DNA of 26,630 nucleotides, taken from positions 1-26,630 of IMG/VR virus record IMGVR_UViG_3300030117_002201; one strand, 5' to 3'. This document shows, one piece after another, positions 1,645-25,399 of this stretch. The notes under the pieces are model-generated. The model made no database searches. It was not told the origin of the DNA and worked only from the letters and a program-made list of their open reading frames with translations. Both the position numbers and the translations under genes were made by a program. Origin of the DNA: a virus. Position 1 is the stretch's first letter, and every line of letters starts with the position of its first letter.

Positions 1645-2077
1645 AATTGCAGAGCACTTCGAGGCAAAGAAGTATGCTTACAGACAGACTAAAGATGGTG
1701 TCATCTTGAGTTTTGTGCTGCATCCAGATGATGTACCCAAGGAGATGGCTCTTGCCAACATAGGTCAGAGGTACATGGTTGCTTGCGCACAGATAGATGA
1801 CTTCGAGAATCCGATACGCCCAGCAGCTGTAACTGAGGGTGAACGTGCGGTTGCCAGAGCTAATCTGATTTGCAGGGATGCGTCATATCAATCTTGGGTT
1901 AGACGCAACAGAGGCGAGTGGCCCCATGTAGACTTTGAGAATACAACTGACGAAGAATATGCAGCACAGGTAATTAGAAGTGTGTGCAATGTTGAGTCGC
2001 GGTCTGAATTAAAACATAGTGAAACAGCTAGAACGCTTCTATCTGATCACATGAAAGAGTTTGAGAGATCGCTATGA
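1634..2077 (+). CDS. conserved phage protein of unknown function near recombination genes
   Basis: I prefer the TTG at 1634 because GGAGAG (1624-1629) lies just upstream, giving 147 residues and an 11-base overlap with the previous gene. A TTG at 1607 would add nine residues but has no ribosome binding site. The N-terminal segment (Y-R-Q-T-K-D-G-V-I-L-S-F-V-L-H-P-D-D-V-P) followed by I-G-Q-R-Y-M-V-A-C-A-Q-I-D resembles a widespread family of short phage proteins of unknown function. The usual pattern there is K-D-G-x-x-x-S-F-V-I-H-P-x-D-x-P followed by G-T-R-Y. The C-terminal half contains a W-V-R-R-N-R-G segment and helices. Its ATGA junction with the regulator gene downstream suggests co-translation. 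Confidence 0.65.
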   Translation: MESKIAEHFEAKKYAYRQTKDGVILSFVLHPDDVPKEMALANIGQRYMVACAQIDDFENPIRPAAVTEGERAVARANLICRDASYQSWVRRNRGEWPHVDFENTTDEEYAAQVIRSVCNVESRSELKHSETARTLLSDHMKEFERSL

Positions 2078-2337
2078 GTTGGTATGCTGATAGGCTAAAG
2101 CGTCTTAGAACGGATCAGAGGATGTCTCAGCAACAATTAGCTGACAGATCTAACATGACTAAGGCGTATGTTGGACAGGTTGAAAGGGGTGAGCGTAAGC
2201 CAAGCTTCGATGTGGTAGAAAGGATCGCAGCTGCACTGGGCGCGAAGATTTATATCTCGCTTGAGAATCCAGAGCCACCCGCTTTGAACCCAAAGAACAA
2301 ACCGAAAACGTCAATCGCTAGTAGGTTTAACAAATAG
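2074..2337 (+). CDS. XRE-family (Cro/CI-like) helix-turn-helix transcriptional regulator
   Basis: This 87-residue protein has a textbook XRE helix-turn-helix at residues 5-60. It runs L-K-R-L-R-T-D-Q, M-S-Q-Q-Q-L-A-D-R-S as helix 2, T-K-A-Y-V-G-Q-V-E-R-G as recognition helix 3, then R-K-P-S-F-D-V-V-E-R-I-A-A-A-L-G. The C-terminal 27 residues are short, basic and proline-rich, without a peptidase or sensor domain, so it resembles a Cro-type repressor rather than a self-cleaving CI. It is the last gene of the overlapping plus-strand operon (ATGA overlap with the gene before). XRE dimers usually bind palindromic DNA. The repeated GTTTAAAC palindrome and the ATAGGTCAG inverted repeat just behind the gene (2334-2397) are candidate operators, but this is inference. 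Confidence 0.88.
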   Translation: MSWYADRLKRLRTDQRMSQQQLADRSNMTKAYVGQVERGERKPSFDVVERIAAALGAKIYISLENPEPPALNPKNKPKTSIASRFNK

Positions 2338-2499: not shown

Positions 2500-3087
2500 A
2501 TGGGTATTTTACATTTCGATAATAGCAATGTGTCTGTTGGTGGCGCGATCTTTTTCAATGATCATGCACAGCAAGTTAGTCTTGACACAGGTTTCGCTAA
2601 CGCTACTGGTGGTGTTTCTGTACAGGCGTTTATTTCTGAAGAAGAAAGGCAGCTGAATAAATTGGGCGGTATGCTTATTAATCAGGAAGCCAGAGTAGAG
2701 AAAGCAGAAGAGCTACTGAAGTCTATACAAAAGGAGAGGGACGCGACTGTAGAATCTATCCGCAAGATCAAAGAAATTTTACACAAAAAAGAAGTCCAGA
2801 GAGATGAAGTAAACAAAGCAATTCTCAGGAAGGGTAGGGGCTTCCATTATAGGGATGACCTATCACAGCCCGGTGTTTACTTGCTGGCAATGGAAGACAG
2901 GATAGTTTATGTGGGTCAATCCAAGAACCCTCATGCAAGGATACCCCAGCACAGGGACAAGGAATTTACCCATTTCCGTATATTGCGTTGCCCAGAACGT
3001 AGACTGACATATTGGGAGAGCGTTCTGATCAAGAAGATAAATCCTGTATATAACAAAACACTAAAAAAATATCGGAGGCGTGGTTAA
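2500..3087 (+). CDS. GIY-YIG endonuclease, probable free-standing homing or regulatory nuclease
   Basis: The 195-residue product has a long charged coiled coil at residues 46-108 and a C-terminal GIY-YIG nuclease domain at residues 122-187. The signatures are G125-V-Y127 and Y137-V-G139, an arginine at 147, the glutamate E173 expected to bind the catalytic metal, and N181-P-V-Y-N. These five positions match the active site described for the GIY-YIG superfamily (UvrC, I-TevI). The N-terminal coiled coil is not the usual zinc-finger/NUMOD architecture. The start ATG at 2500 follows AGGTAGAG. The gene is not overlapped with its neighbours, unlike the operon before it, and lies between two copies of an imperfect 18-bp direct repeat (2325-2342 and 3152-3169), suggesting a mobile cassette. 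Confidence 0.85.
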   Translation: MGILHFDNSNVSVGGAIFFNDHAQQVSLDTGFANATGGVSVQAFISEEERQLNKLGGMLINQEARVEKAEELLKSIQKERDATVESIRKIKEILHKKEVQRDEVNKAILRKGRGFHYRDDLSQPGVYLLAMEDRIVYVGQSKNPHARIPQHRDKEFTHFRILRCPERRLTYWESVLIKKINPVYNKTLKKYRRRG

Positions 3088-3112: not shown

Positions 3113-3189
3113 TATGAGAGTTTTTTGACGAAGGTGAGAGGCAGCATCAGCGTTTAAACAATAGGTCAGATGAAGTACGGACTCTCATA
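3113..3189. repeat. inverted repeat between the convergent transcription units
   Basis: TATGAGAGT (3113-3121) pairs with ACTCTCATA (3181-3189), giving a 9-bp stem with a 59-base interior. It lies exactly between the end of the plus-strand genes and the stop of the first minus-strand gene. T-rich sequence (3120-3126) follows the left arm rather than the right, so a simple terminator is doubtful. The interior holds a GTTTAAAC site and the second ATAGGTCAG copy. Confidence 0.45.
3152..3169 (+). repeat. direct repeat copy 2 flanking the GIY-YIG cassette
   Basis: GTTTAAACAATAGGTCAG begins with a perfect GTTTAAAC palindrome and matches copy 1 (2325-2342) in 16 of 18 bases. It lies 64 bases after the endonuclease stop. 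Together the copies look like target-site or recombination scars, or repeated binding sites for one protein. Confidence 0.65.
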
Positions 3190-3190
3190 A

Positions 3191-3370
3191 TTATTCAGCA
3201 CCGTGAATCTGATCGTCTGCCTCAAACCCCCAGTTCATTGCATCACTCAACAATGCAGTAAGTTGATCTGGTTCTATCGGCTTCATCTTCATGTTTAATG
3301 TTTTAGTTTCGGAGCAGTACTTAACTGTCATCGCCACCTTTTCATTTTCGTACTCGAAGTGTCCTTCCAT
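3191..3370 (-). CDS. small acidic protein of unknown function
   Basis: I choose the ATG at 3370 (59 residues, MEGHFEYENEK...) because GGAGGG lies five bases upstream of it. An ATG at 3388 would add six residues and sits two bases from a GTTTAAAC motif, inside a 16-bp sequence also found at the start of the GNAT-like gene at 19449, so it cannot be excluded. The product has alternating hydrophobic and charged residues (K-V-A-M-T-V-K-Y, T-L-N-M-K-M-K-P-I), suggesting a small beta sheet, followed by a helix (L-T-A-L-L-S-D-A-M-N-W). There is no signal peptide, membrane segment or known motif. It is the last gene of the minus-strand block, isolated from the rest by 244 bases. Confidence 0.6.
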   Translation of the reverse strand: MEGHFEYENEKVAMTVKYCSETKTLNMKMKPIEPDQLTALLSDAMNWGFEADDQIHGAE

Positions 3371-3614
3371 GCTCACCCTCCATGACATCGTTTAAACACC
3401 TAGATATATACACGAAACCATCAGCGTTGAGGATAACTTATACGATATCCTATCGCTGTATTTTTATGACCACTGGTACCCGGAACACAGCAGTAGGTTA
3501 GTAAAGTCGTTTAAACAAACCCGGATAAACACCGTTGTAACGCAGGTATGATAGGTGTTCGCGTTTAAACAAACGTGGTTTTATTACAACAGGAAACAAC
3601 AATACCGCAGTGGG
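3371..3614. promoter_or_regulatory. gene-free strand-switch region with three GTTTAAAC sites
   Basis: I see no coding frame here. It contains GTTTAAAC at 3390, 3509 and 3563. The last two sit in a 13-bp direct repeat, CGTTTAAACAAAC (3508-3520 and 3562-3574), spaced 54 bp apart. Between them AACACC and GGTGTT can pair, and near 3431-3453 AGGATA and TATCCT form a short hairpin. No convincing -35/-10 pair could be settled by eye on either strand. The density of symmetric sites suggests a control region for the genes on the left or an origin-like element. Confidence 0.5.
3508..3574. repeat. paired 13-bp direct repeat CGTTTAAACAAAC
   Basis: The two identical copies occupy 3508-3520 and 3562-3574, 54 bp start to start, which is close to five DNA helical turns. 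Each contains the complete GTTTAAAC palindrome followed by AAAC. They are the only copies in the window with the same 3' extension, so they may form a paired binding site. Confidence 0.65.
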
Positions 3615-3944
3615 TTACTTCTTACCGAACTTCTGCTTCTGTGATTTGGGTGGACTCTTGCTGCTACCGCCTTTGCTCCAGAAAAGTTTGTTTGCCCAGA
3701 AAGCAGCAGATGTTTTTCCCTTCTTTATATTCTTTGCGTGACGAGCCTTGAAGCTTTTACGAGCCTCATCACTGTAGTTGTGTCCCATCTTCTGATCACC
3801 GAATCGAATAATCTTCATCTTGCTACCATCTCTGACAGCAACAACTCCCTTCTTGGTGGGGTGGTTAGGAGTTCTCTTCGGCTTGTTTAAACCTTTCAAG
3901 CCCACTTTCTTCAGCCGGTTCTTTTCCGCATCTGTTAAACTCAT
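3615..3944 (-). CDS. small basic phage protein, conserved in marine phages, function unknown
   Basis: The 109-residue product is strongly basic. The N-terminus (M-S-L-T-D-A-E-K-N-R-L-K-K-V-G-L-K-G-L-N-K-P-K-R-T-P) and the core around residues 60-88 (R-K-S-F-K-A-R-H-A-K-N-I-K-K-G-K-T-S-A-A-F-W-A-N-K) match a small protein I recognise from marine phages, in which the core ends in A-A-Y-W-A-N-K. No function has been established that I know of. The lysine-rich tail suggests contact with DNA or RNA. ATG at 3944 overlaps the preceding stop (ATGA). A GTTTAAAC copy at 3885-3892 encodes G-L-N. It is the last of five consecutive small basic genes. Confidence 0.75.
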   Translation of the reverse strand: MSLTDAEKNRLKKVGLKGLNKPKRTPNHPTKKGVVAVRDGSKMKIIRFGDQKMGHNYSDEARKSFKARHAKNIKKGKTSAAFWANKLFWSKGGSSKSPPKSQKQKFGKK

Positions 3945-4183: not shown

Positions 4184-4302
4184 TATTTTTTCTTCTTCTT
4201 ACCCTTGTTGAGCTTATCGAAATCTGCCTTGGTAATTTTATCTCTAGGCTTCGCAACTCTAGCTAGTTTCTTTTGCTTCGGACTGTACTTTTTGAATGGC
4301 AC
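4183..4302 (-). CDS. 39-residue lysine-rich mini-protein with a GTG start
   Basis: This is a very short gene starting at GTG 4302 and reading M-P-F-K-K-Y-S-P-K-Q-K-K-L-A-R-V-A-K-P-R, then D-K-I-T-K-A-D-F-D-K-L-N-K-G and five lysines. Fifteen lysines and two arginines in 39 residues make it one of the most basic products here. A strong AGGAGG binding site (4309-4314) lies seven bases upstream, and a GTTTAAAC palindrome (4303-4310) fills that spacer exactly. The TAA overlaps the next ATG by one base, supporting coupling. The N-terminus resembles mini-proteins annotated in marine phages. The function is unknown. Confidence 0.75.
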   Translation of the reverse strand: MPFKKYSPKQKKLARVAKPRDKITKADFDKLNKGKKKKK

Positions 4303-4310
4303 GTTTAAAC
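4303..4310. promoter_or_regulatory. GTTTAAAC palindrome forming the SD-to-start spacer
   Basis: Read on the minus strand the sequence is TTAGGAGGTTTAAACGTG: the palindrome begins with the last G of the Shine-Dalgarno sequence and ends directly at the GTG start codon. The same arrangement, TTAGGACGTTTAAACATG, occurs upstream of 17103. Confidence 0.75.
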
Positions 4311-4313
4311 CTC

Positions 4314-4601
4314 CTAACGTTTCTTAGCGTTTGCTCTTCGTATTGCCTCTTTACCTTTCTTCGCTATCTCTGCTTGCTTGTTTTTACCAGCCACCTTAGC
4401 CCTCTGCTCAAGCACAGTGAGGATTTGTATCTTCCTAGCGAATGGTTTCTTTATGTTCTTTACCTTCCTTACAGTGTCCCTAGCGTCCTTCTCTGTGGCG
4501 AATTTTATACTGACGGTATCCTTGGGGTTCTCATCTGTATACAGCCGTCTGCCTGATCCCTTGGGCTTCTTGCCTGTCCCTTTCTTGGGATCTTTGCTCA
4601 C
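4314..4601 (-). CDS. small basic phage protein, conserved in marine phages
   Basis: The 95-residue product starts at GTG 4601, whose GTGA overlaps the previous TGA by four bases. It begins S-K-D-P-K-K-G-T-G-K-K-P-K-G-S-G-R-R-L-Y-T-D-E-N-P-style, a motif I recognise from marine tailed phages. The middle (V-S-I-K-F-A-T-E-K-D-A-R-D-T-V) and a helical basic half (residues 50-95: P-F-A-R-K-I-Q-I-L-T-V-L-E-Q-R-A-K-V) follow. There is no enzyme motif. Strong positive charge and conservation as a set with its neighbours suggest a nucleic-acid-associated or packaged protein, which is inference. Confidence 0.77.
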   Translation of the reverse strand: MSKDPKKGTGKKPKGSGRRLYTDENPKDTVSIKFATEKDARDTVRKVKNIKKPFARKIQILTVLEQRAKVAGKNKQAEIAKKGKEAIRRANAKKR

Positions 4602-5644: not shown

Positions 5645-6008
5645 TAAGCACCTGCTTAGTTCCACGATTAATTATATTTTCTATCAGCTTTGGTTTTCGT
5701 AATGAAAGCACATCCATATCGTGCTTCGCGAACTTTTTTCTGATCTCTTCTACTTCCTCCAAAGCCTTTTGATTTTCTACGGTAAGTGCTGACACACGCT
5801 CTAAAACAATCTTATGTTTTTCTTTTTGCTCCAACAGCTGTTGATTCTGATCAGCAATATTTTTTTCTAACAACTCCTGATTATCGATAGCTAGTTCCAG
5901 CTTAGTCTGTAGCTCTCGTTTCTGCGCCTCTGCTTTGTCATAGTAAGATTTAAAGCCACCCACTAATACCAACATCAAAATACCGCTACCTATAACTAAC
6001 TGCCACAT
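5610..6008 (-). CDS. inner-membrane spanin (Rz-like)
   Basis: This 132-residue protein has one N-terminal membrane anchor (residues 3-21, Q-L-V-I-G-S-G-I-L-M-L-V-L-V-G-G-F) followed by a long coiled coil (about 25-100, rich in E, K, Q and L). That topology (N-in, periplasmic coiled coil) is the hallmark of i-spanins. The lipoprotein gene nested in its 3' end and the lysozyme next to it support the assignment. The start ATG at 6008 shares one base with the stop of the giant gene (TAATG), so it is probably translated by coupling. Sequence identity to lambda Rz is not apparent; the call rests on architecture and position. Confidence 0.82.
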   Translation of the reverse strand: MWQLVIGSGILMLVLVGGFKSYYDKAEAQKRELQTKLELAIDNQELLEKNIADQNQQLLEQKEKHKIVLERVSALTVENQKALEEVEEIRKKFAKHDMDVLSLRKPKLIENIINRGTKQVLNELETITAPTT

Positions 6009-9000
6009 TATCCATCTGTTCCAAACTTAGCAGCACGTTCAGCCTCTTGATCTTGTCTTCTTAAATTACGCATAATCCTAGTTGTGGTCTGACCACTACG
6101 AGTAAGCTCCCGTATCTTGGCTCCATAGGAATCAAGTACACGCTTGTAGTTGTTTAAACGCCTCATTCTTTCTTCACGAGACAGGCTTTGATCCCGCGCC
6201 ACCGAGTTCATAGCGGCCATGATGTTGCTTTTTTCTCGCTCAATATATGACAGTGATATCTGTATCTGTAGCGGATCTATATTTGATAGGTTCAATCCTA
6301 TGAAGCGCAACAGAGACTGATTAATCGTATCGGTTTCCAGACCATTAGGCTTGGTATTGCCACCTAATGCAGTGTAAAGCTTTGATACTGCTCCATATTC
6401 TGTATTTAAAAATCCCGGCAAAATGTATTGATTCGCTGCCCAAAATAAAACATCTGTTAGCTGACCGCGATTGTAAAATGGACGCTCTATTGCATCTGAT
6501 ATAAAGAATGGATCACTTGGATTTACAATAGGTCTTTGTGTAAATGGATCTAGGTTTTGTGATAAGCCGAACAATGACCATGCTGGCCCCCCAAACATAC
6601 CCAAAGTAGATGTAACATCTTTAATATCAAAACCTTTTTCTGCTGGGCCTTTGTTACCTACCAATGATTTACCAGCAATAGCAGCATCAGATATAAGCTG
6701 TGAAAAAGATCCCCACGGATACAGGTATGCAGTATCTAAGAACTGTAATCGACCTTCTGAATCACGAACAGGTATAGGTATCATGCCGGGGTTGCCCCGC
6801 AAATAATCTGGCAAAGACTGCTTAACATCCTCATATTCATCATCATCTATATCAAACGCCGACATAAACAATGACGGCAAGGCATAAGACAAGGCTACAT
6901 ATGGAGCAAATCTCATAGGATTACGAAGCGCAGTTTTAATTAGTGCAGGTAATACCTTATATTGGAATGTAAGAAACGGTATACCCAATGGGCTTTGTCG
7001 TATTTTACGAACCACCTGTGGCACATCAGAATAATCAAATAGATATTCTTGTGCTCGTAAGAAGCCATCATCTGCACTCAGCCCCTCTCGCTCCATGACA
7101 TCTATATTAATAGCTGTCTTGCCTATAACCTCTATGCCCTGATAAACCTTGCTGGCCTTTTGCGCTAACTTTTGCCAAGTATTTAGCTTTAACCACCCAT
7201 ACATACCTATATCTTTGGCATCGACAGAGCTTAAAAAGTCCATCATATCGTCAGCCATTTGCATAAGTTCTTGATCTGTAAAGGATGTTTGCTGTACGCC
7301 CCGCTTTAACATCTCTGCATAGTGTTTAGAGTTCTCGAAGTCGCCCCGGTTGTATGCTCTCACCTCGTTAATAGCTTCAACGAATCTGGGTATCACCCTG
7401 TAAAATGGCACGCCAGAAAGATGCATCAGTATGGCGTTACTGAATAGGTTTCTAGCTATGGTTGGCGGGTTCAACGGTACTTTGATCGTCTTCCAAACAG
7501 CTGTTAGCTCACGACCCTTCGAGGCAATACCCTGCACAGCAGCATCGCCTAGCTGCAACATAGCTCCTGACGCTATAACATCATCAAATATCTCTGTTCT
7601 AACCAAACGCCCGGACAACAATCCATACTTCTTGTTTTTCGGAACCCGTTTAAACTGATCGCCGTAGCCCTGTAACTCTGCTGCAAACCCGGCATCATCC
7701 AATTGTTCGTAGTATTCTAATGGCTGTAGCCCTTTAGCTATAAATGCATCCCTAACAGCATTCTCCATCTCTACTGCATCTTGAGTTAACTTCGCTGCTT
7801 TATCTGGATCAGCTGCACTAAGCGCATCTGCTATTTCGCGCAGTGTTCTAGCCTCATTAGTCAGATAAAAACCGCTGACCTTGATTGGCTCGCCATTCTT
7901 GCCTATATAATCAACAACAAACTGGTCATCTGCAGTAGTCCACGCATCGTTACCCGCAATCGAATTCATAAACTCTATAAACTGCAAGTCTCGTATGGGT
8001 CTTTGTATAGCTCGTGATACTAAAAACGCAGGATCTAGCTCGTTTATTACACCAAGCGACTCTTGTGACTCTTTTGTCATATCTTTACGAGGCTTTAGAT
8101 AGCTAAATGCTGCGTCTCTCTTGTCCTCTAGTACGTGTTTTATGTATATACGAGGTAAATATGACCTTTTATTTGCAAAGAACGTGCGAGGATTTAGAAG
8201 CCCTTTATTGACCAACTCTAAACCTAAATTTTCTATCAGATCTTTGGCCTTTTCTGATGCAGCTGCTGCTCTAGGATCTAATGCTTTAAGTTGTGCCAGA
8301 ACATTCGCTTCCGCATCTGGCTCACCAGTAGTCAGATAGTTAAATATAGTGGTTCTTAACTGCTCTGTATCAGCACGATCCTTCGGCCCTTTTTTAAACA
8401 GGAATTTATTGCCTATTTCATCGCGCAAAAACTCGGCGACTTTGGTAGATCTACCCACTGTACCCAAATACTCAGCACGACTTAGGTAAAACTCTCGCTT
8501 TTGTGGCAAACCGCCAAGAGTGTTAAAAAACGGAATGTTATTGACATAGTTGATGGCTTTCTGTCTGCCATTCTTCATGACGCCACGGAGGTTTTCTGTC
8601 CCATGATTGGTTACAGCAGCAGCTTCATTCTGCTTTTGTGCGTAATATATTTCTGTTGACTCTATAAGTTTGTCAGACACCCTCATATCGTCTGTAATTT
8701 CGTATACTTTTAGCGCATTACGTTGATTAGAAGTAGCAAGGAAAAAGCTCTCGCTAGTAACGGGTAGCTCCTCAGCAAATCCTTCTTCTTCTCTAGCAAG
8801 ATTTTCTGCATCTATGTCAGCAGTCTCTCTCTGAATCCTGCGTATAATTTCAGCGTCCTGACCTCTATCTGCGAAAGGTATTATTCTAGTTGGTTGATCT
8901 TCAATCTCTGAAAGCTCTATAATTTTTGCAGCTTCTACCCTTCTAGGATCTAAGCTACCTAAATATAATCGCTTGCTAGCGTTGTTATCTCTAATATCTT

Positions 9001-12000
9001 TCTTTGCTTTCTTTATTTGCTTAGGTGTATTGCCAGATAGATTAGCTAAACTAGCCTCTAGTATTTGTGGTACTTTTCTATCGTAAAGATTCTCAAATCC
9101 TGACCCAGCAGGGTAATCAATAGCACCAGTAATCCTGCTTTTCATATCCTTAATTGCTGGAATATCTAGCAAAGACTCCGATGCTAGTTGTTCTGGCGTT
9201 AGTGACTGACCATTTTCTTTTTGTAATCTCAAGTTTTCTAACTCGGCATATCGAGTCTGCAAACTCTGCAACAAATCAGGGGCAAAATACGAACCCGTAT
9301 CACCCATTTGATCTCTAATAATTTTAGCTGTGTTATCTCCAATCCAATCGTCTAACACAGGCTGCATAAAAAAGCCTTCTCGTACAGATACAGGCTGTTG
9401 ATCTCCTAATTGAATCACATTTGATAATACAGATGACTTGATCATTTGACCGTTTTCAAAACGTGCCACTGGCACTGTATAAGCAACAGTAAATTGCGTT
9501 GCTACATTCGGATATTTGCGGGACATAACATCTGAAAATGCTCTTGTAGCAATAGCCGATACTAATCGATCTGCATTAGCATCTGATACGTCTATTTCTT
9601 CACTAAACTCTTTCTCAAACGAGTAATTTAAATTATCTAAATATGATCTGGGATCATCTCTGTTTAAACGATATAACAAAGTACCCTGAGATGGGACATT
9701 GAAAATACTATCTATACGTTGTGTGACACCACTCATCACCTGTTCAGACATATCGGCAGACACATCAGAAATTACATCTGTTGTCGCCTCAGATAAAGGT
9801 ATGCCACCTAACTCTCTGGATCTTTCTGTCAATCCTTCAATGTCTACCTCTGGGCCTTCTGCCAAATAGCTTAATCGATCAGCCTGATCTAATATTTCCT
9901 GTTGGGTAATTACTAATCGTATGGGTTCTGCTACTTCTTCTGCAAATGGATCCATGACATCCTGATCATCGATATGAGTTATTTCTATTTGAATAGCATT
10001 CACACCATCAACCACAGTGCTATCTACTCTACTAGAATATCTATCTGTAAAATCACTTATAGAAAAAGTTCTTTGTATATTAATCCCATCGATATGCTCT
10101 TTGAGTTGGTCTCGATATCTTTCTTTATGTCCCTCGCTACCAACAACAGCAATACGGTCATATCCATTTTGAACAGCCATCCGTGTTATTTGATCTAATG
10201 CAAATGCAAGTCTTTGATTTTCATTCTTCAACGGCAGATCGGGTATTTCTTGACCGTACACCTCATCCCTAAACGAATCCTGCATTTCTCTTACAGTATT
10301 CTTTTCCTCTCTGTTTAAACGGAAAAAATCGGGATACCTTATTGACCCCATTTCAAATAGCTCTTTAGTAGCCATGTCTCTCATAGAGCTTTGTGCTCTC
10401 TGATGCATATCAGATTGTATTTCTTCTATAACCAGAACAACTTCGCCGTTATCTAAAACATAGTCGCTTAGTCGTGCGTGTAATATAGGATTCCTAACGC
10501 CTTTAAAGTGAGCGTGTGTAAATGTAGAACCTTTAGGGTTATCTAGCGTGATGGCAAATACGATCTCTCTGTAATTGAATTGATCAAGAGTGCCAGCAGG
10601 ATATTGTGATTCCGGCACACGATCTAAAAAAGATCTACCGCCCATTTGTGTGAACTTTTTGTAATACCCAACGCCCTGCTCTAACCCGACACCAAAATCA
10701 ACGTCAAATGGTTGTGGGCTTCCTAATGGAGAATCCATCCTCATATCCACGTTTTCTTGTGTTGGATATAAACGAGCAGTCTCTAGGTTTACTAACATTT
10801 GCCCTAATGAAACTAGGGACAAAGCATTGTTTGGATCAGCAATATCTCTTTTTAGTTTACCAGCTAATTCTCTGCCATCTTTCTTTTGCTGGGGTGCAAT
10901 TTCTGCTTCATATGTGGCTATATCATCGATAGATTCTGGTAACGGTAGTTTGTTGATAAGATCCACGATGTCGGGGCTAAATACATTATTATCAACATTT
11001 GGATTAGGAGATCCGTTCACTAATATATTGACTATCTTTTTGAGACTGCCAGCTGCTTCCTTACCCTCATATCGATCCGCTTTAATTCTCAAACTTGTCA
11101 ATGCATTATTAGCTACTGATTCATATGCAAGATCATTACGCTCTTCTTGCAAAGCATCTCTATAAGTCTGCTCACTCTTAGCGTCTTTATCACCTGATCT
11201 CGATATTGGTGTACCGTATATCTGTATCTCTAATACTTTCTCTGTTGCCTCAACAAACTCTTCTAGCTCTTTGCCAGATACAGCCTTGTTCTCAGGCAAT
11301 GTAGCTAGATATGTACCCAAAGCAGAGTCGTTGAACTCTTCTATCTTTACACCCTTGAGCTTGCCAGCAACAAACGACTTTCCTTTAGCATCGGTATCAA
11401 TCCTAGCCCACGCTTCTGGCAACGCTTTGTCGTTACCCAAACTACTTAGAGTGCGCTTTAATTTAGAGTGAAAGGCTGGGCGCATACCTGTACTAGCTGC
11501 TACTGGCCCCTGCTTTATCATGTACAGCGGGGTGCTTGAAGAAAGTCCAGACGTATCTAATATCGGGCCGATCTCTTTTCTTAGATCTTTTACAGGCCCA
11601 ACATCAGGTGTTCTCGCACCGACACGGCCTTGACGAACCTGATTGAATATATCCTCTATCTCTGCTGGCAAACGCTCACCCGTAAAAGCTGCCCTAAGCT
11701 GTTTAAACAGTTTAAGAATCTTGCTAAATATACGGCGCAGCGGTGGATTAAACTCTGCTGGAACCTTGCCATCTATATCTAGGCCACGGTTATACAAAGC
11801 AGACGAGTATGCGACTAGCTCGTTTAGCTGTTGGAATGGATTTAACCCATCCATAGCCCTGTTAAACTCTTTATCTCCAAGCTGTCTGCGTACTATGTCT
11901 TGCATACGCCCAACGTTAGCTTGTAGATCTTTCAGTTCTTGTGCGTTGAAAAAACCATTGTTGAATAAGAAGTGTGTTGCTTCATGGTATGCGCGGTTGT

Positions 12001-15000
12001 TGGTATCTAAGAAGCCATCTGTTGTTAGAGATACGGCAACAAGATTGCCAGCCTGTAAGCCTAACGCTTCTTGCATTGAGACTTCTTTGCCATTGATGTT
12101 AACGGTCTGCAAATTAGGATCATCCATCGATCTAGCTGGACCAAACAGCTGTGAGGCAACTTCTATCCTAGCTGTTGGCGCAATAGACTTAATGACCTGT
12201 ACAACTCTGTTGAATTCGTTGATATCAAGTGGTGCTTTAGACTTAACAACACCCGGCCCTAGCTCCGTCATTGTGCCAGCGACCATTTCTCCAGCTACAG
12301 GCTGACCAGTTTTTAACGCAAAATCTAAATCTTTAGCTTGATCAAGAGCATCCAAGTATTCGTTAGCAGAAGAAAAAGCGTTTCGAGCAGAGTCGTGATC
12401 CATACCACCCTGCCTGTATTCGTTATATAGCTTAAGAGCCAGACCCAAAACGGCTGCATCTTGCTTGCCCTCTAAATCTATTAAAACATCTTCGCCTATA
12501 TCTTGTTTTTCTCTTTCAGATAAAACAGTTTTAGGTTCTTTCTTTAGTTTCCGCTTAGTCTTTTTTTCTTCCTTTGCAACCTCTTCTTGTGTCGTTGTTT
12601 GTTCTGTTCTTGGATTGATTTGCGGTACTGAAAAAACAGATTGATTTGCTGCTCTTGCTGCCTCTCCTTGTTCTTTTACTTTTGATCTAACATCTTGCCC
12701 TAATTCACGAATAGTATTTTCTGAAAGATTAAGGCCAGTGCGTTCATAATAATCTATCAAATCCCCCATAATTTCTTGATCAGCTTTAGATCTGCTGCGG
12801 GGATTACCTACAATGTATAAAGCCTTATCTAGTAACGAATCAAATACAGGGGTTTCATCTCTATATTTTGGCTTAGATTTCTCTACACGATCAGATATAA
12901 ATTCGTCGGTAGTAGGCTCATCTTGTATCTCTTCTTCTAATATCTCTTCTGTAGCCTCTGCCTCTGGAGGTCGTGCATCTTTTGCCTCTTGCTGTGCAGA
13001 TGCAGCTGCTGCTGCCTCTTCAATAGCTTGCTTGCGACCCTCTTCACGAAGCTTATTCTCAGCTTCTTCCTGCTTTCTTTGCTCGTTTAAACGCTTTTTA
13101 GTTTGTTGGTGCTGCTGCACTACATCTAATAAATCTATCTTCTGCTGATTGGTCAGCTGTGCTAGATCTGTATCAGGGCTTCCTGTTACCTGTTGTATAT
13201 AATTCTTTCTATCTTTCTTGCTTACCTTTTGTTTCTTTATCTCTCTTTCGATAGCAGATGTTTCTATCTGTGTCTGTAGAGTCTCTGATTCTTCACCTGT
13301 TAAAGCAGCCCTGCCCAATACTGTTGTGGGGTTAGGCTCGTTGATAAGTCCACTCAGGGTCTGTTCGATATTGTCTGATAGGTCGCCACTATCTACCGCC
13401 TCGGTAGTTTCTGCGTCTTGTAATATGCTTGCGACACCGACCTCTACATTGGATTTATAGTCTGGGTTGCGTCTTTCTTTTTCTTTCTCTACTGCCTTGA
13501 GGTTATATACGCTATCAGGCTTGGCTTGCGCCTGTGCTTTGTCACCCTGTTGTGTAGCTTTGATTGCATCCTTGAGAGTAATGTTGCCAGCCTCTACCTG
13601 TGGCAATAACTCTGGCGATACGAATGGCTTTAGCCCCTCTTCGTAAAGCTCTTGTGTAGTCATCTCACCTACAGCTTTATCATTAATGCGATATTTAGGA
13701 CTGAGCAAATCAGCATCACTAGCAAACGACAGTCCAGTATCGGGGTCTACCGTCTGATTCTTGGGCAGATAGGCTATGTCCTCGTCGTTAACTAATACTT
13801 TGACCTTATCGCCTTCTACTCCCAATACTTGCGCTGACTGCATATTGCCATCTGCATCGTATACAGATATTGACTGCTCACTCTGCTGCATCTCTGCAAG
13901 CTGTTCATCTGATAGAGCTGGTAAATCTGGGGCAGACTCAAGCTCTTGTCGTAGCTGCTTTTCTGACTTGGGATATTTAACTTTGCCACGTACAAGTAGA
14001 TCAAAGATCGCACCTGCACCAGCACCATAACCAAAGTCTGACAACATACTGTCAGTCAATGGCATATCAGGATCATAGTTATTTCGGGCTGCAAACTTTT
14101 GCAAGAACCCTGCTACCAATTCCTGACCGCCTTCAGCTATACCTGTAGTGGATGCTTCCGCTAATCTTTGGACTACCTGACTCTTTACATTCTGCCCGAT
14201 AGTTTTGGGTATACCACGGAGAACCATCTCTACTGGCAAGAGTTCTAAGAATCCTATCGGCACACCTAACGCTATAGCTAGGTTACGTTGCCCTACCGTG
14301 TAATCATTGCCAGCTGCTTTGTATGCTTCTATCAGTGAGCTTGCTTCACCCGCTCCAACCCCCGGCGCAAAAGCACCGTACTGTATGCCTTTCAATCCCT
14401 TGGCTAACTTGTTGACACGAGTAGCTGCTGCTGCATATTCGCTACCCTTAGCTGCAAGTGCTGCCCCTCTACTGGCTGCTCCAGCTGCCCCTAGTCCGGG
14501 TACAGCAAATAACAGTATGCTTCCTAGAGCTTCTGCCAGTTTGCCTACGACAGTCTCTTCATTGCCTACAAAAGCTTTTGCTTCTTGTAATGCCTTGAAT
14601 GCTTCTGATGACTCAGGATCTAGCGCATCTTCAAAGCCCGCTACATTAGTTACGGTATCTGCTATTGAGAATAAACCCTCTCCGATAGTGAGTGCAGTCT
14701 GACCTACACCTCTAGCTATGCCTCTTGGTACAGCCAGTAATGGGTTTTGACTTTCTTCTTCTTCTATTACTGGCAATGGGGTTTGAGCAAAGCCAGTTCC
14801 AAAACCTGCAAATAAATCTGGAACTGTTTGCGGATCAGGAGAGGGTCGCGGTGGCACAGCTGCCTGTGATTGGGAGATCGGGGCTTGTGCTGCTGCACCA
14901 TCCGCGAAAAAACTACCGGGCTGTATTGGAGATAATGTTTGGTTTATTGCTCTTAACTGGCTTCTTCGTGGCGGTACGTCGAATTGCGATACCGCATTAG

Positions 15001-15055
15001 TAGAACCCTGCAATGCATTAATTAATGCTTGTATTCGTTCTTCTTGAGTCGCCAT
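6008..15055 (-). CDS. giant 3015-residue polyvalent virion protein with HEATH zincin-like motif
   Basis: This one gene fills a third of the window. Residues 1-380 are glycine/alanine-rich with amphipathic stretches (e.g. V-P-G-L-G-A-A-G-A-A), suited to membrane contact. A long, charged, Q/E/K-rich region follows to about 900. H1024-E-A-T-H1028 in R-A-Y-H-E-A-T-H-F-L is a zincin-type HExxH motif. A segment around 1495-1640 contains N-Y-R-E-I-V-F, H-F, E1544-E-I-Q-S-D1549-x-H-Q and N-G-Y-D-R-I-A, matching a domain common in large polyvalent phage proteins. About 2500-2900 holds N-P-P-T-I-A-R-N-L-F-S-N and hydrophobic segments, also typical of such proteins. Size, position before the lysis genes and domain mix suggest a virion protein ejected with the DNA. 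Six GTTTAAAC copies lie inside. Activity is untested. Confidence 0.85.
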   Translation of the reverse strand: MATQEERIQALINALQGSTNAVSQFDVPPRRSQLRAINQTLSPIQPGSFFADGAAAQAPISQSQAAVPPRPSPDPQTVPDLFAGFGTGFAQTPLPVIEEEESQNPLLAVPRGIARGVGQTALTIGEGLFSIADTVTNVAGFEDALDPESSEAFKALQEAKAFVGNEETVVGKLAEALGSILLFAVPGLGAAGAASRGAALAAKGSEYAAAATRVNKLAKGLKGIQYGAFAPGVGAGEASSLIEAYKAAGNDYTVGQRNLAIALGVPIGFLELLPVEMVLRGIPKTIGQNVKSQVVQRLAEASTTGIAEGGQELVAGFLQKFAARNNYDPDMPLTDSMLSDFGYGAGAGAIFDLLVRGKVKYPKSEKQLRQELESAPDLPALSDEQLAEMQQSEQSISVYDADGNMQSAQVLGVEGDKVKVLVNDEDIAYLPKNQTVDPDTGLSFASDADLLSPKYRINDKAVGEMTTQELYEEGLKPFVSPELLPQVEAGNITLKDAIKATQQGDKAQAQAKPDSVYNLKAVEKEKERRNPDYKSNVEVGVASILQDAETTEAVDSGDLSDNIEQTLSGLINEPNPTTVLGRAALTGEESETLQTQIETSAIEREIKKQKVSKKDRKNYIQQVTGSPDTDLAQLTNQQKIDLLDVVQQHQQTKKRLNEQRKQEEAENKLREEGRKQAIEEAAAAASAQQEAKDARPPEAEATEEILEEEIQDEPTTDEFISDRVEKSKPKYRDETPVFDSLLDKALYIVGNPRSRSKADQEIMGDLIDYYERTGLNLSENTIRELGQDVRSKVKEQGEAARAANQSVFSVPQINPRTEQTTTQEEVAKEEKKTKRKLKKEPKTVLSEREKQDIGEDVLIDLEGKQDAAVLGLALKLYNEYRQGGMDHDSARNAFSSANEYLDALDQAKDLDFALKTGQPVAGEMVAGTMTELGPGVVKSKAPLDINEFNRVVQVIKSIAPTARIEVASQLFGPARSMDDPNLQTVNINGKEVSMQEALGLQAGNLVAVSLTTDGFLDTNNRAYHEATHFLFNNGFFNAQELKDLQANVGRMQDIVRRQLGDKEFNRAMDGLNPFQQLNELVAYSSALYNRGLDIDGKVPAEFNPPLRRIFSKILKLFKQLRAAFTGERLPAEIEDIFNQVRQGRVGARTPDVGPVKDLRKEIGPILDTSGLSSSTPLYMIKQGPVAASTGMRPAFHSKLKRTLSSLGNDKALPEAWARIDTDAKGKSFVAGKLKGVKIEEFNDSALGTYLATLPENKAVSGKELEEFVEATEKVLEIQIYGTPISRSGDKDAKSEQTYRDALQEERNDLAYESVANNALTSLRIKADRYEGKEAAGSLKKIVNILVNGSPNPNVDNNVFSPDIVDLINKLPLPESIDDIATYEAEIAPQQKKDGRELAGKLKRDIADPNNALSLVSLGQMLVNLETARLYPTQENVDMRMDSPLGSPQPFDVDFGVGLEQGVGYYKKFTQMGGRSFLDRVPESQYPAGTLDQFNYREIVFAITLDNPKGSTFTHAHFKGVRNPILHARLSDYVLDNGEVVLVIEEIQSDMHQRAQSSMRDMATKELFEMGSIRYPDFFRLNREEKNTVREMQDSFRDEVYGQEIPDLPLKNENQRLAFALDQITRMAVQNGYDRIAVVGSEGHKERYRDQLKEHIDGINIQRTFSISDFTDRYSSRVDSTVVDGVNAIQIEITHIDDQDVMDPFAEEVAEPIRLVITQQEILDQADRLSYLAEGPEVDIEGLTERSRELGGIPLSEATTDVISDVSADMSEQVMSGVTQRIDSIFNVPSQGTLLYRLNRDDPRSYLDNLNYSFEKEFSEEIDVSDANADRLVSAIATRAFSDVMSRKYPNVATQFTVAYTVPVARFENGQMIKSSVLSNVIQLGDQQPVSVREGFFMQPVLDDWIGDNTAKIIRDQMGDTGSYFAPDLLQSLQTRYAELENLRLQKENGQSLTPEQLASESLLDIPAIKDMKSRITGAIDYPAGSGFENLYDRKVPQILEASLANLSGNTPKQIKKAKKDIRDNNASKRLYLGSLDPRRVEAAKIIELSEIEDQPTRIIPFADRGQDAEIIRRIQRETADIDAENLAREEEGFAEELPVTSESFFLATSNQRNALKVYEITDDMRVSDKLIESTEIYYAQKQNEAAAVTNHGTENLRGVMKNGRQKAINYVNNIPFFNTLGGLPQKREFYLSRAEYLGTVGRSTKVAEFLRDEIGNKFLFKKGPKDRADTEQLRTTIFNYLTTGEPDAEANVLAQLKALDPRAAAASEKAKDLIENLGLELVNKGLLNPRTFFANKRSYLPRIYIKHVLEDKRDAAFSYLKPRKDMTKESQESLGVINELDPAFLVSRAIQRPIRDLQFIEFMNSIAGNDAWTTADDQFVVDYIGKNGEPIKVSGFYLTNEARTLREIADALSAADPDKAAKLTQDAVEMENAVRDAFIAKGLQPLEYYEQLDDAGFAAELQGYGDQFKRVPKNKKYGLLSGRLVRTEIFDDVIASGAMLQLGDAAVQGIASKGRELTAVWKTIKVPLNPPTIARNLFSNAILMHLSGVPFYRVIPRFVEAINEVRAYNRGDFENSKHYAEMLKRGVQQTSFTDQELMQMADDMMDFLSSVDAKDIGMYGWLKLNTWQKLAQKASKVYQGIEVIGKTAINIDVMEREGLSADDGFLRAQEYLFDYSDVPQVVRKIRQSPLGIPFLTFQYKVLPALIKTALRNPMRFAPYVALSYALPSLFMSAFDIDDDEYEDVKQSLPDYLRGNPGMIPIPVRDSEGRLQFLDTAYLYPWGSFSQLISDAAIAGKSLVGNKGPAEKGFDIKDVTSTLGMFGGPAWSLFGLSQNLDPFTQRPIVNPSDPFFISDAIERPFYNRGQLTDVLFWAANQYILPGFLNTEYGAVSKLYTALGGNTKPNGLETDTINQSLLRFIGLNLSNIDPLQIQISLSYIEREKSNIMAAMNSVARDQSLSREERMRRLNNYKRVLDSYGAKIRELTRSGQTTTRIMRNLRRQDQEAERAAKFGTDG

Positions 15056-17103
15056 TAAAGAGGAATGTTGCTTGTTAAATATTCGTCATTTAGCCAAGGA
15101 AAATCTTGTTTGAATTCTATTCTTGCTTTTTTCTTAGCCTCTGCATCTGGTGCGTTTGCTATCTCTGCAAGTTTATCACCATATTTATAAAGCACAGCAT
15201 CATATCCAACTTCGTTATTTTTGTTGAAATCTGCTTTAACTAAACCTCTAGCTATCCTAGACAGTTCTTGTGGACTAGCACCGGGATTTGCCTCTTGAGC
15301 TACCTTATAAAATTTAGCTAGTCTCGGTATGATGACCTCAAACGACTGATTTACTAATCGTCTAGCCTCTGGAACATATCTCTCTTCAAAACCACCAGCT
15401 GCTAATCTTATTCTAGCTTGTTCTATTGGAACAGTAAGCTGCTGTTCTGTTTCAGTAAATTTCAAAGCTGTATTATTAAAACTATTGATAGATGCGTTTA
15501 CATCATCTGCAATTTTTCTAAGATCCTCTGCCTCTGCTTTAGATACATCTAATCCAAGCCGAAGTGCTTTAAATAAGTTGTCTTGCATACCCTTATTTAT
15601 TGCTATTGCATTAGCATCTGCTGCTGTCCTATAAGTTGCCTCTAGCTTACGAGCGTCATTAATACGCTTAAGATTGTCTTGTTGTCTTTGATAAGCCGTA
15701 TTAGCTTTATCTTTCTCTCTTCCGTAAGCATCAATAGCGTACTGATAAAGTTCTTTCTGCTCTTGACCAGAAAACTTATTCATCACATTAGATGCGCCAG
15801 CCAAACCTCTTGATATTGTTTCTATAAAACTAGGTGTTGCGTTCCCTGCTGCATTAAAAAATGCAGATGCTACACCAAGATCTGTTTGCTTTTTAATTCT
15901 TTCTTTAATGTTGTCTTTACTTGGTAGCTCGTTTTCCAATTCTTTTAGCTTGTTAAGAGAGTTATCTACTTCGGTCTTGTATTGCTTTTCTCTAGCTATT
16001 AAATCACTAAACATCTGATTGCTAACGCCTGTAGCAGTTTGTTTAAACGTATTAGCTCCCACACTATCTTGCGTCCCGCCGACAGGAATCGATGAATCTG
16101 CACTAGCTAATCGCGCCAAACCAGCAAATTGAAAATTATCCATAGCCCTTGGGTTTGTTAAAAACTGCTGCATCAACTGACTATAGGTGGGAAGCGTTTT
16201 AACATTTACTGGCCCTTGTCCACTTTGACCTAAATTAGATGATTGATCTTGACCTGATTGACTATCCTCAAGTGCTGCATCTACCTGATTATCTGTCTGC
16301 CCAGATGTAACAGACGGTTGCTGTCCACCTGTAGGCGTCCCGCTCATTGGAACGTTTAAACTAGGTCTTGTTAAAACAGGTGGCAAACCTTCTCGCATAC
16401 TTGAAACTGCTCTGTAAGTTTCATCAAATGGTTTTATTAAAGCCGTATCACCCGGATCAGATAATCCCAAAGCTCTTCCAAATCTACTGGACTTTGCTAG
16501 TCGCGCAAGGTTTCCAAGTGCTGATGCACCAACCAACCCTAAATCCACTACACCAGCAGCTGACTCCAACGCGCCAATTCCAAATTGTTTTAGCGCAGTT
16601 CTATCATTTATTGATTGAACAAGCTGCTCTTGTTCAGCTGGAGACAAGGATCGATATTGATCCTCAGTTACGCCAACGTTTTCTAATGCACCGAAAAAGT
16701 TAGCTAAATTATTATTCTGTAACCCTATAGTTCCCTGCGTTCCTGATTGGAATCGTCTAACTAACCCGCCAACCTTTGCCATAGGCATTGGTGCTGGCTG
16801 CATAGACTGCAATGTCATCATCGGATTAGGCATAGGCTGTTGCATCTGAGGTTGCATCGGGCCTTGTGCCATAGGGCCAGCTGGCATAGTGGGACGCATA
16901 GCTGTAGCCAAAAGCTGATTTATGACAGGGGGCTGTGGCATATTCTGCATAGCAGAAGCTTCTTGCCTAATATCATTACGAGCTTTCATTTCACTCGCAG
17001 CGATAACTCCTTCGATCCCTCCAGCCTGTGTTAGCTGGGCTAGAGCTTGATCTGGCAACCCCTCTGTTCTATCCGCAATCCTAAGTAGATCTTCCATTGC
17101 CAT
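15055..17103 (-). CDS. virion-associated protein, Met/Pro/Gln-rich N-terminal region
   Basis: The 682-residue product shows three parts. An N-terminal helical segment (about 1-50) is followed by a low-complexity M/P/Q region (about 52-110, repeated P-M-x-x-P-M-Q) ending in K-V-G-G-L-V-R-R-F-Q-S-G, a motif seen in marine-phage internal or tail proteins. A hydrophobic patch lies near 175-205, and a long helical, coiled-coil-like C-terminal half has many charged residues. ATG at 17103 follows TTAGGAC with a GTTTAAAC palindrome as spacer. The end overlaps the giant gene by one base (TAATG), so the two are probably co-translated and act together, for example as ejected internal proteins. That role is inferred; I find no enzyme motif. 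Confidence 0.72.
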   Translation of the reverse strand: MAMEDLLRIADRTEGLPDQALAQLTQAGGIEGVIAASEMKARNDIRQEASAMQNMPQPPVINQLLATAMRPTMPAGPMAQGPMQPQMQQPMPNPMMTLQSMQPAPMPMAKVGGLVRRFQSGTQGTIGLQNNNLANFFGALENVGVTEDQYRSLSPAEQEQLVQSINDRTALKQFGIGALESAAGVVDLGLVGASALGNLARLAKSSRFGRALGLSDPGDTALIKPFDETYRAVSSMREGLPPVLTRPSLNVPMSGTPTGGQQPSVTSGQTDNQVDAALEDSQSGQDQSSNLGQSGQGPVNVKTLPTYSQLMQQFLTNPRAMDNFQFAGLARLASADSSIPVGGTQDSVGANTFKQTATGVSNQMFSDLIAREKQYKTEVDNSLNKLKELENELPSKDNIKERIKKQTDLGVASAFFNAAGNATPSFIETISRGLAGASNVMNKFSGQEQKELYQYAIDAYGREKDKANTAYQRQQDNLKRINDARKLEATYRTAADANAIAINKGMQDNLFKALRLGLDVSKAEAEDLRKIADDVNASINSFNNTALKFTETEQQLTVPIEQARIRLAAGGFEERYVPEARRLVNQSFEVIIPRLAKFYKVAQEANPGASPQELSRIARGLVKADFNKNNEVGYDAVLYKYGDKLAEIANAPDAEAKKKARIEFKQDFPWLNDEYLTSNIPL

Positions 17104-17111
17104 GTTTAAAC
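17104..17111. promoter_or_regulatory. GTTTAAAC palindrome adjacent to start codon
   Basis: The whole gap between two virion genes is 11 bases (17104-17114) and eight of them are GTTTAAAC. On the minus strand the order is TTAGGAC, then TTTAAAC, then ATG, matching the arrangement at 4303-4310. Confidence 0.75.
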
Positions 17112-18989: not shown

Positions 18990-19449
18990 TCACGACCTCC
19001 AATACTGGCTGCTCTGCATCTACTTCCTCATAGTTTACAGGCTTTGTCATTAATACATATTCTTTCACAAAACCATTATCAGACCATTTCTTTTCTAATG
19101 CCGGTGCAGTAGATGTCTCTAGTCCATCTAGTTGTAATGTTTTTGCAAACACCTCACAGACCTCTAAAGCCTGTTCTCCCCACTCCTTCAATCTAACACC
19201 ACTCAAGGTATTTAAATCTAAATATTTTTTCCTTGGATATACATTCACACCGCAAATGAAAAACCCTATGGGATTTTCTTCTTCCCACACGATCCAAACA
19301 AAATAAGGAAGCTCAATCATTTGATGAAGAATGTCTGCAGTATTATATCTACCATGACTTCTTCTCTCTAAGTTTTCTGCATGATGAGATATCTTAGGCC
19401 ACAAATCTAATATCTTATCTTTTTCAATAAGCTTAATATCAAATGACAT
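18979..19449 (-). CDS. GNAT-like acetyltransferase or related phage protein
   Basis: The 156-residue product has the order of elements of a GNAT fold. An N-terminal helix (K-I-L-D-L-W-P-K-I) is followed by strands in Y-F-V-W-I-V-W-E-E-E-N-P-I-G-F-F-I-C-G-V. A helix follows (W-G-E-Q-A-L-E-V-C-E-V-F-A-K), then C-terminal K-K-W-S-D-N-G-F-V-K-E-Y-V-L-M-T-K. Similar proteins occur among tail or core genes of marine phages. The Q/R-x-x-G-x-G/A acetyl-CoA loop is not obvious, so catalytic activity is doubtful. The ATG at 19449 stands one base after a GTTTAAAC palindrome and has no strong Shine-Dalgarno sequence. The gene overlaps the structural gene downstream by 11 bases, so it is expressed with virion genes. 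Confidence 0.55.
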   Translation of the reverse strand: MSFDIKLIEKDKILDLWPKISHHAENLERRSHGRYNTADILHQMIELPYFVWIVWEEENPIGFFICGVNVYPRKKYLDLNTLSGVRLKEWGEQALEVCEVFAKTLQLDGLETSTAPALEKKWSDNGFVKEYVLMTKPVNYEEVDAEQPVLEVVNGR

Positions 19450-19450
19450 C

Positions 19451-19458
19451 GTTTAAAC
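19451..19458. promoter_or_regulatory. GTTTAAAC palindrome at a gene junction
   Basis: It lies between the GNAT-like start (19449) and the stop of the gene upstream (19453), overlapping its final codons. With the bases downstream it forms ATGACATCGTTTAAAC (19443-19458 on the plus strand), identical over 16 bp to 3382-3397. Confidence 0.7.
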
Positions 19459-22710: not shown

Positions 22711-22718
22711 GTTTAAAC
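22711..22718. promoter_or_regulatory. GTTTAAAC palindrome in the 25-base gap between two virion genes
   Basis: The gap 22695-22719 holds one copy, flanked symmetrically as GCGTTTAAACGC, a perfect 12-bp palindrome. It is 16 bases upstream of the ATG at 22694. Confidence 0.75.
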
Positions 22719-25078: not shown

Positions 25079-25399
25079 TTATTTTTTACTCATGTATGCA
25101 GTAGCACCAAAATACAGTCCTACTACCGATGCCTGACTCAAGAATAACATATCACTCAAAGATGCTAGAGTGTTTAAACGTTCTTCTGGTATAAAAGGTA
25201 GTAATGGCAATAGCGCAAAAACACACATAGATATCATTGCAACCCACGCCATTTTTTTTTGTGAGTCTGCTTTTTCTTCTTGCAATTCTAGCTGCAACAT
25301 TTCTTGGTGCTTAGTAAGCTCTTCGTCGGTAACAGTACCATCACCATCTGTATCATATTCAGCGTATCTTGATTTTGGCTCTAACTTTTTAGGAGTCAT
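25079..25399 (-). CDS. EF-hand protein with two membrane segments, holin candidate
   Basis: Residues 16-27 form a complete 12-residue EF-hand loop (D16-T-D18-G-D20-G-T22-V-T24-D-E-E27), which in other proteins binds calcium. A charged helix follows (about 28-48), then two membrane segments (about 50-70, M-A-W-V-A-M-I-S-M-C-V-F-A-L-L-P, and 83-103). Proteins with this EF-hand plus two-TM plan occur in marine phages. A small two-TM protein is also the shape of a holin, but this one sits among head/tail genes 20 kb from the lysozyme. A GTTTAAAC copy at 25172-25179 encodes R-L-N between the two TM segments. The start ATG overlaps the previous stop by four bases. Confidence 0.75.
   Translation of the reverse strand: MTPKKLEPKSRYAEYDTDGDGTVTDEELTKHQEMLQLELQEEKADSQKKMAWVAMISMCVFALLPLLPFIPEERLNTLASLSDMLFLSQASVVGLYFGATAYMSKK

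Follow-up and report, generated by a model that had tools for sequence, protein, structure and literature searches.

GTTTAAAC is an eight-letter DNA palindrome that is present in tens of copies per genome in many bacterial viruses that are not related to each other, and this word, together with one gene shared by its carriers, points to a virus-borne DNA-recognition system that has not been described before. The stretch of DNA analyzed here (hereafter, the window, 26.6 kb) is most of a 28,715-bp IMG/VR record of a tailed phage that encodes an endolysin, a spanin and virion proteins; tRNA genes, which we looked for as a clue to the host, were not found. The window contains 23 copies of GTTTAAAC, compared to 0.52 expected from dinucleotide shuffles (standard deviation 0.73), and none of the 100 shuffles attained this number. 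Relatives of 54, 42, 57 and 58 kb have 48, 38, 47 and 40 copies, respectively, and five motif-free outgroup records have 0-1 copies each. One outgroup record (G019, loci L107-L109) carries another iterated word, CCCGACCC, with 23 copies versus 0.98 expected. Under a second-order Markov model, GTTTAAAC was the highest-ranked 8-mer in all seven clade genomes tested. The exact word accounted for 390 strand-counts versus 11 expected, and its one-mismatch variants were found at 0.16-2.0 times the expectation, i.e., without enrichment and in some cases with depletion. An origin by chance or from base composition was rejected by the shuffles, the Markov expectation and reversed-pattern controls.

The sites of the window, placed relative to ORFs called with a simple script, are listed below together with one protein gene that is discussed later; the palindromic sites are given without strand.

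639-646, GTTTAAAC site, within ORF 476-760
1097-1104, GTTTAAAC site, within ORF 1021-1644
2074-2337, plus strand, XRE-type HTH protein (HTH_3) of 87 aa, a rival candidate reader found in the window's phage group only
2475-2482, GTTTAAAC site, intergenic; ORF 2500-3087 starts 17 nt on
3152-3159, GTTTAAAC site, between convergent gene blocks
3390-3397, GTTTAAAC site, one base ahead of the ATG of ORF 3191-3388 (minus strand); also present in G001 and G002
3509-3516, GTTTAAAC site, intergenic
3563-3570, GTTTAAAC site, intergenic
3885-3892, GTTTAAAC site, within ORF 3615-3944
4303-4310, GTTTAAAC site, exact spacer from the SD-like AGGAGG to the GTG at 4302 (minus strand); present in G001 and G002, absent from G012
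6152-6159, GTTTAAAC site, within the 3015-aa ORF
7648-7655, GTTTAAAC site, within the 3015-aa ORF
9662-9669, GTTTAAAC site, within the 3015-aa ORF
10313-10320, GTTTAAAC site, within the 3015-aa ORF
11701-11708, GTTTAAAC site, within the 3015-aa ORF
13085-13092, GTTTAAAC site, within the 3015-aa ORF
16041-16048, GTTTAAAC site, within the 682-aa ORF
16354-16361, GTTTAAAC site, within the 682-aa ORF
17104-17111, GTTTAAAC site, abuts the ATG at 17103 (minus strand); six relatives with diverged flanks have it, G015 has lost it
19451-19458, GTTTAAAC site, one base ahead of the ATG at 19449 (minus strand); kept in G001, G003, G008 and G012, lost in G002 and G013
22190-22197, GTTTAAAC site, within the 900-aa ORF
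22658-22665, GTTTAAAC site, within the 900-aa ORF, close to its start
22711-22718, GTTTAAAC site, 16 nt ahead of the 900-aa ORF start; shared by six relatives
25172-25179, GTTTAAAC site, within ORF 25079-25399

Although ORF calls cover about 96% of the record, 8 of the 23 sites are intergenic; 14 are within ORFs and one lies across a gene edge. The copies inside ORFs occupy frames 1 and 2 only, frame 0 being a stop. Several other features of this DNA should be recorded. The 900-aa tail-like gene contains an array of 17 imperfect 45-bp units (20124-21128), spaced by 66 bp in its second half; a 54-bp repeat is found six times in an array within a 624-aa gene (17648-18025); and the 3015-aa protein (6008-15055) has no PHROGs match, with only three related loci retrieved by the search. 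Locus L005 (~6461-6664) has unresolved bases (XXXX in the translation) at or just past the window end.

The first-pass annotation noted that the octamer forms the exact spacer between the Shine-Dalgarno sequence and the start codon, and the leaders match exactly: on the minus strand, TTAGGAGGTTTAAAC is followed by the GTG at 4302 and TTAGGACGTTTAAAC by the ATG at 17103. The gene at 4302 is a 39-codon ORF only, with homologues in three relatives. The copies at 3390 and 19451 end one base ahead of an ATG, as had been stated. This first observation is correct, but it is one corner of a larger pattern, as 4 of the 23 sites of the window lie 0-1 nt from a start codon and start-adjacent copies are a minority. 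Across seven genomes, an ATG directly follows 19 of 508 strand-sites, compared to 6.6 expected from other AAAC contexts. Based on the deposited annotation of phages R26L, Sue2 and Venkman, the sites are enriched 4-6-fold in intergenic regions and 3-4-fold in the 80 nt that precede starts (9 of 20, 8 of 17 and 15 of 34 sites, versus 2.4, 2.4 and 4.9 expected, respectively). Six site-to-start gaps in Sue2 are 27-31 nt long, and six in Venkman are zero. Sites are spaced more evenly than by chance in R26L, Pan1, Sue2, UNTPL and G003; their spacing is random in G001 and G013, and they are clustered in Venkman and G029.

The sites are conserved in position. In relatives with nucleotide identity of ~72% (71-73%), 13-17 of 16-21 aligned sites are kept, i.e., 68-94%, compared to ~10% for all octamers; at 90% identity, 20 of 20-21 aligned sites are kept. 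Alignment of the leaders, which had been proposed as a check, likewise found the start-adjacent copies conserved in position, with the 17103 leader traced in seven genomes that are otherwise diverged there. Losses of leader sites were found at 17103 in G015, at 19449 in two relatives, and at 4302 in one. Because sites are kept at 71-73% identity while individual leader copies are lost, the sites are upheld place by place, yet they are not obligatory for the gene behind them. Judging by these alignments, strong selection keeps the fixed positions of GTTTAAAC. Once symmetrised, the flanks favor C or T at position -1. In the window's clade, position -5 also tends to be a purine and position -6 a pyrimidine; freshwater group B retains chiefly the preference at -1. 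Flank position 1 is conserved at 0.86, compared to 0.71 for the background. Given this preference and this conservation, the flank pattern looks like that of a protein-contacted site, not of a bare eight-letter word, and GTTTAAAC is very probably a DNA site recognized by a protein. The putative recognition site is GTTTAAAC with a flanking pyrimidine/purine (YGTTTAAACR).

Relatives of the window were gathered through its 615-aa virion protein. All contigs with at least 54% identity (L006-L042) have the word, at roughly 0.15-0.7 per kb, and none of those with 47% identity or less (L043-L085) has it. A pair-pattern scan of IMG/VR yielded at least 120 stretches, at least 85 of them word-dense; those listed include the window's group, AT-rich contigs, and a freshwater group that is actinophage-like and has a terminase closest to those of Streptomyces phages. 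The density of GTTTAAAC is up to 4 per kb. Cultured carriers, which were reached by searching cultured phages with the SprT-like protein considered below, include Methylophilales phage Venkman (34 copies), Dinoroseobacter phages R26L (20) and R5C (17), and Pseudanabaena phage Pan1 (16); the expectation is 0.02-0.04 for R26L, Pan1 and R5C (0.02 for R26L, with a genome of 62.6% GC). Achromobacter phage Mano has relatives with 4-8 sites, among them E. coli phage Bas97. In enterobacterial phages such as Bas97, which has six sites with one of them upstream of the SprT gene, the word is weaker than in other carriers, and the count in ep3 (4 versus 0.93 expected) is unremarkable alone. The marine phages CRP-902 (Roseobacter) and HTVC027P (Pelagibacter) have 0-1 copies. 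SprT-bearing phages of Arthrobacter, Microbacterium and Streptomyces lack GTTTAAAC; their top 8-mer is GTGTAAAC/GTTTACAC, and GTTTACAC is present in 25, 23 and 39 copies versus 0.04-0.11 expected, with strand counts of 17/8, 8/15 and 16/23. One SprT subclade has mixed words (GTTTAACC, GTTTAAAT, GTTTACAC and GTTTAAAC), and the type of word tracks the SprT tree.

These distributions bear on the level at which the word acts. A translational element, in which the GUUUAAAC spacer controls initiation at the RNA level, agrees with the exact geometry of SD, word and start in several genes and with the six zero gaps in Venkman; it is nonetheless barely credible, as most sites are intragenic, the actinophage copies are in both orientations, and the gap in Sue2 is ~29 nt. 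In addition, G015 (at 17103) and G012 (at 4302) keep the gene without the palindrome, which argues against translation or RNA pairing as the primary level. The pairing of RNA palindromes between transcripts, which the first-pass annotation had raised, also finds evidence against it, because GTTTACAC is non-palindromic and is found on both strands. Its other proposal, a bound protein, is the best reading in view of the symmetric flank preference and the copies in ORFs; the SD-start spacer as the defining place of the word was not supported, since most copies are in genes.

The bound protein could belong to the host. A factor conserved across bacteria and exploited by phages of many hosts would fit the presence of the same word in phages of Methylophilales, Dinoroseobacter, Pseudanabaena and enterobacteria; however, CRP-902 and HTVC027P are nearly or fully devoid of the word, and the word variant tracks a phage gene, that of SprT. 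We consider the host factor highly improbable.

HIP1, GCGATCGC, an exact octameric palindrome that is highly iterated in the coding DNA of cyanobacteria, is a feature of cellular genomes and the nearest cellular analogue of GTTTAAAC in sequence behavior. The enrichment of the exact word but not of its near-variants is HIP1-like, and it is unusual for a regulator site. Together with the high maximal density, it would fit a methyltransferase or repair system that acts on the exact octamer, with no regulatory role. This reading is very unlikely. A methyltransferase common to the carriers was not found: one C5 methylase was detected among 48 scanned proteins of three genomes, and one each is annotated in Venkman and ep3. 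The flank preferences, the non-palindromic GTTTACAC and the enrichment just upstream of starts would not be expected either, and in a scan of cellular genomes the matches listed were mainly local clusters and tandem arrays, on which ground a host-imposed HIP-like word was provisionally rejected. Unlike HIP1, GTTTAAAC is phage-borne, conserved in position, linked to a phage gene, and accompanied by a sister word, GTTTACAC. It should be noted that, in one protein alignment (A1; G013, G015 and one G001 protein), a SutA RNA-polymerase-binding domain, a C5 DNA methylase and a 2OG-Fe(II) oxygenase were each matched by a single protein.

Protein families common to several carrier groups include the SprT-like protein, a primase-helicase and the terminase, of which SprT is the informative one. 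SprT is encoded in 15 of the 17 motif genomes. The other two, G026 and G028, were rejected as SprT-less exceptions, since their contigs stop in the TerL-primase gap, the place of SprT in relatives; the record of the window also ends short of the SprT position, and G001, 90% identical to it, has SprT at 18140. With a fixed threshold, 67 of 80 SprT loci have GTTTAAAC and/or GTTTACAC, a figure that is biased toward the relatives of known carriers, because the query alignment was built from phages mostly already known to carry the word, and the 80 loci are not independent. The 43 distant relatives without GTTTAAAC (L043-L085) are all SprT-free. In a scan by the word only, SprT was found in 45 of 103 word-positive contigs and in none of 13 word-negative ones. 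In the 200 nt ahead of SprT, 15 of 20 genomes have a copy of the word (five of these 15 being related), compared to 2.1 expected from the summed listed probabilities; the five genomes without it include G001, the close relative of the window.

There are exceptions to this association. The SprT-less Mano relatives PPpW-3, FoX1 and M29 have two GTTTAAAC sites each, one of them in TerL over the PSFKR codons (TCG TTT AAA CGN) with the octamer unchanged; since they keep the sites, another reader may exist. The SprT-bearing phages Epa43, PSA20 and Dismas have neither GTTTAAAC nor GTTTACAC, and no iterated word resembling GTTTAAAC is evident in them. (Pseudomonas phage Epa43, loci L417-L419, has 46 copies of CCCTGGGC versus 5.1 expected.) The SprT-less carriers and the word-free SprT phages weaken SprT as the reader. 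The word could instead be read by another phage DNA-binding protein, in the manner of a stoperator or operator repressor, with SprT merely a frequent member of the regulon; in the window's group, this would be the XRE HTH protein (2074-2337), which has a typical DNA-binding fold and is conserved at 56-100% in five relatives and at 26% in G015. The sites retained in PPpW-3, FoX1 and M29 fit such a reader. Conversely, this HTH family is found in 6 of the 17 motif genomes, far behind SprT, and no HTH family is common to the motif-bearing groups, so that a reader of this kind is unlikely. As a universal reader, the XRE HTH protein was rejected, because its homologues outside the window's group are on word-free contigs and the family is not common to the groups. 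The CobS/CobT neighbors were rejected as determinants, as they are missing from most other carriers.

The SprT-like protein itself is predicted to have an SPRTN-type zinc metalloprotease fold with a C-terminal zinc ribbon. PF10263 was matched in 27 of 43 members, and H93, E94, H97 and H106, which make up HExxH and a third histidine, are invariant. The model, of good confidence (mean pLDDT 89), is closest in structure to the SPRTN protease domain 6mdw (Z 8.4, rmsd 3.6, 106 aligned residues). This match comes from a second aligner and from sequence; Foldseek by itself returned nothing under E 0.001, and the sequence gave no match among solved structures. A portion of a CMG helicase chain aligns with residues 166-209 (Z 4.3), in agreement with a zinc ribbon built from the conserved cysteines. 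The predicted protein thus resembles the SPRTN/SprT DNA-protein-crosslink proteases (6mdw, 6mdx) in its fold, in HExxH with the later histidine, which define the family, and in its cysteine-rich C-terminus.

Our leading explanation, to which we assign a little less than an even chance, is that GTTTAAAC is a DNA-level recognition site, iterated genome-wide, for a dedicated phage-encoded DNA-binding system. The SprT-like protein is a plausible but tentative candidate for its reader, as gene and word co-occur, the word varies along the SprT tree, and a copy often precedes the gene. SPRTN-type proteins are, to our knowledge, not established as sequence-specific binders, and we know of no DNA word for SPRTN. 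In the proposed mechanism, the SprT-like protein would read GTTTAAAC, by itself or together with a partner, and would control its own gene via the upstream site. The occupied sites would act on transcription as an operator or an elongation roadblock just upstream of starts, and/or tether the protein to phage DNA, for example, for clearing proteins off the DNA. Sites at gene junctions fit transcription control, and intragenic, regularly spaced sites would fit tethering. The chances that occupancy serves transcription control appear evenly balanced; sites deep within a 9-kb late gene are a poor fit to promoter control and are hard to explain. That the spacing is even in some genomes and clustered in others also counts against the leading explanation. 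The most specific version is somewhat doubtful. In it, the SprT/Spartan-like protein would act as a self-regulating, sequence-specific genome-marking factor on an exact octamer, GTTTACAC for actinophages and GTTTAAAC for most carriers, and, being tethered to no DNA but that of the phage, would govern transcription or strip proteins there.

Among known systems, cluster A mycobacteriophages (L5, TipsytheTRex) have stoperators, asymmetric sites of 13 bp that follow the direction of transcription and are read by an immunity repressor with HTH and Stoperator domains (PMC9283540). The present word resembles stoperators in being a short site with tens of copies per phage genome (23 in the window, 38-48 in the long relatives) that is found near gene starts; stoperators are read by one phage protein and are proposed to act on transcription. 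By contrast, GTTTAAAC is an exact 8-bp palindrome, the asymmetric GTTTACAC is in both orientations, many copies are intragenic, and the common factor is an SprT-like gene in phages that are unrelated and whose hosts span several bacterial phyla. As to a possible repressor, an 87-aa XRE HTH protein is found in the window's group only. Start-associated sequences (SAS) are known from cluster K mycobacteriophages and from cluster EF, where SAS is a 13-bp asymmetric motif in ten leaders and other repeated motifs of Microbacterium phages are described as well (PMC7302621); they are similar in that they are conserved words located ahead of starts, where the ribosome binds. Start adjacency is, however, a minority position of the genome-wide GTTTAAAC (4 of 23 copies are no more than 1 nt away from a start, and 14 lie in ORFs). 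Because the defining features of both fail, we do not class GTTTAAAC as a stoperator or an SAS. No earlier description of these words or of SprT-linked palindromes in phages was found in the literature searched, and the available portions of two Microbacterium/Arthrobacter phage papers contain no report of the word.

One word kept in position and in many copies across unrelated phages, with a sister word and a shared gene, suggests a modular, horizontally spread regulatory or genome-marking system. Phage SprT-like proteins form a large family, for which GTTTAAAC is a candidate sequence target open to testing.
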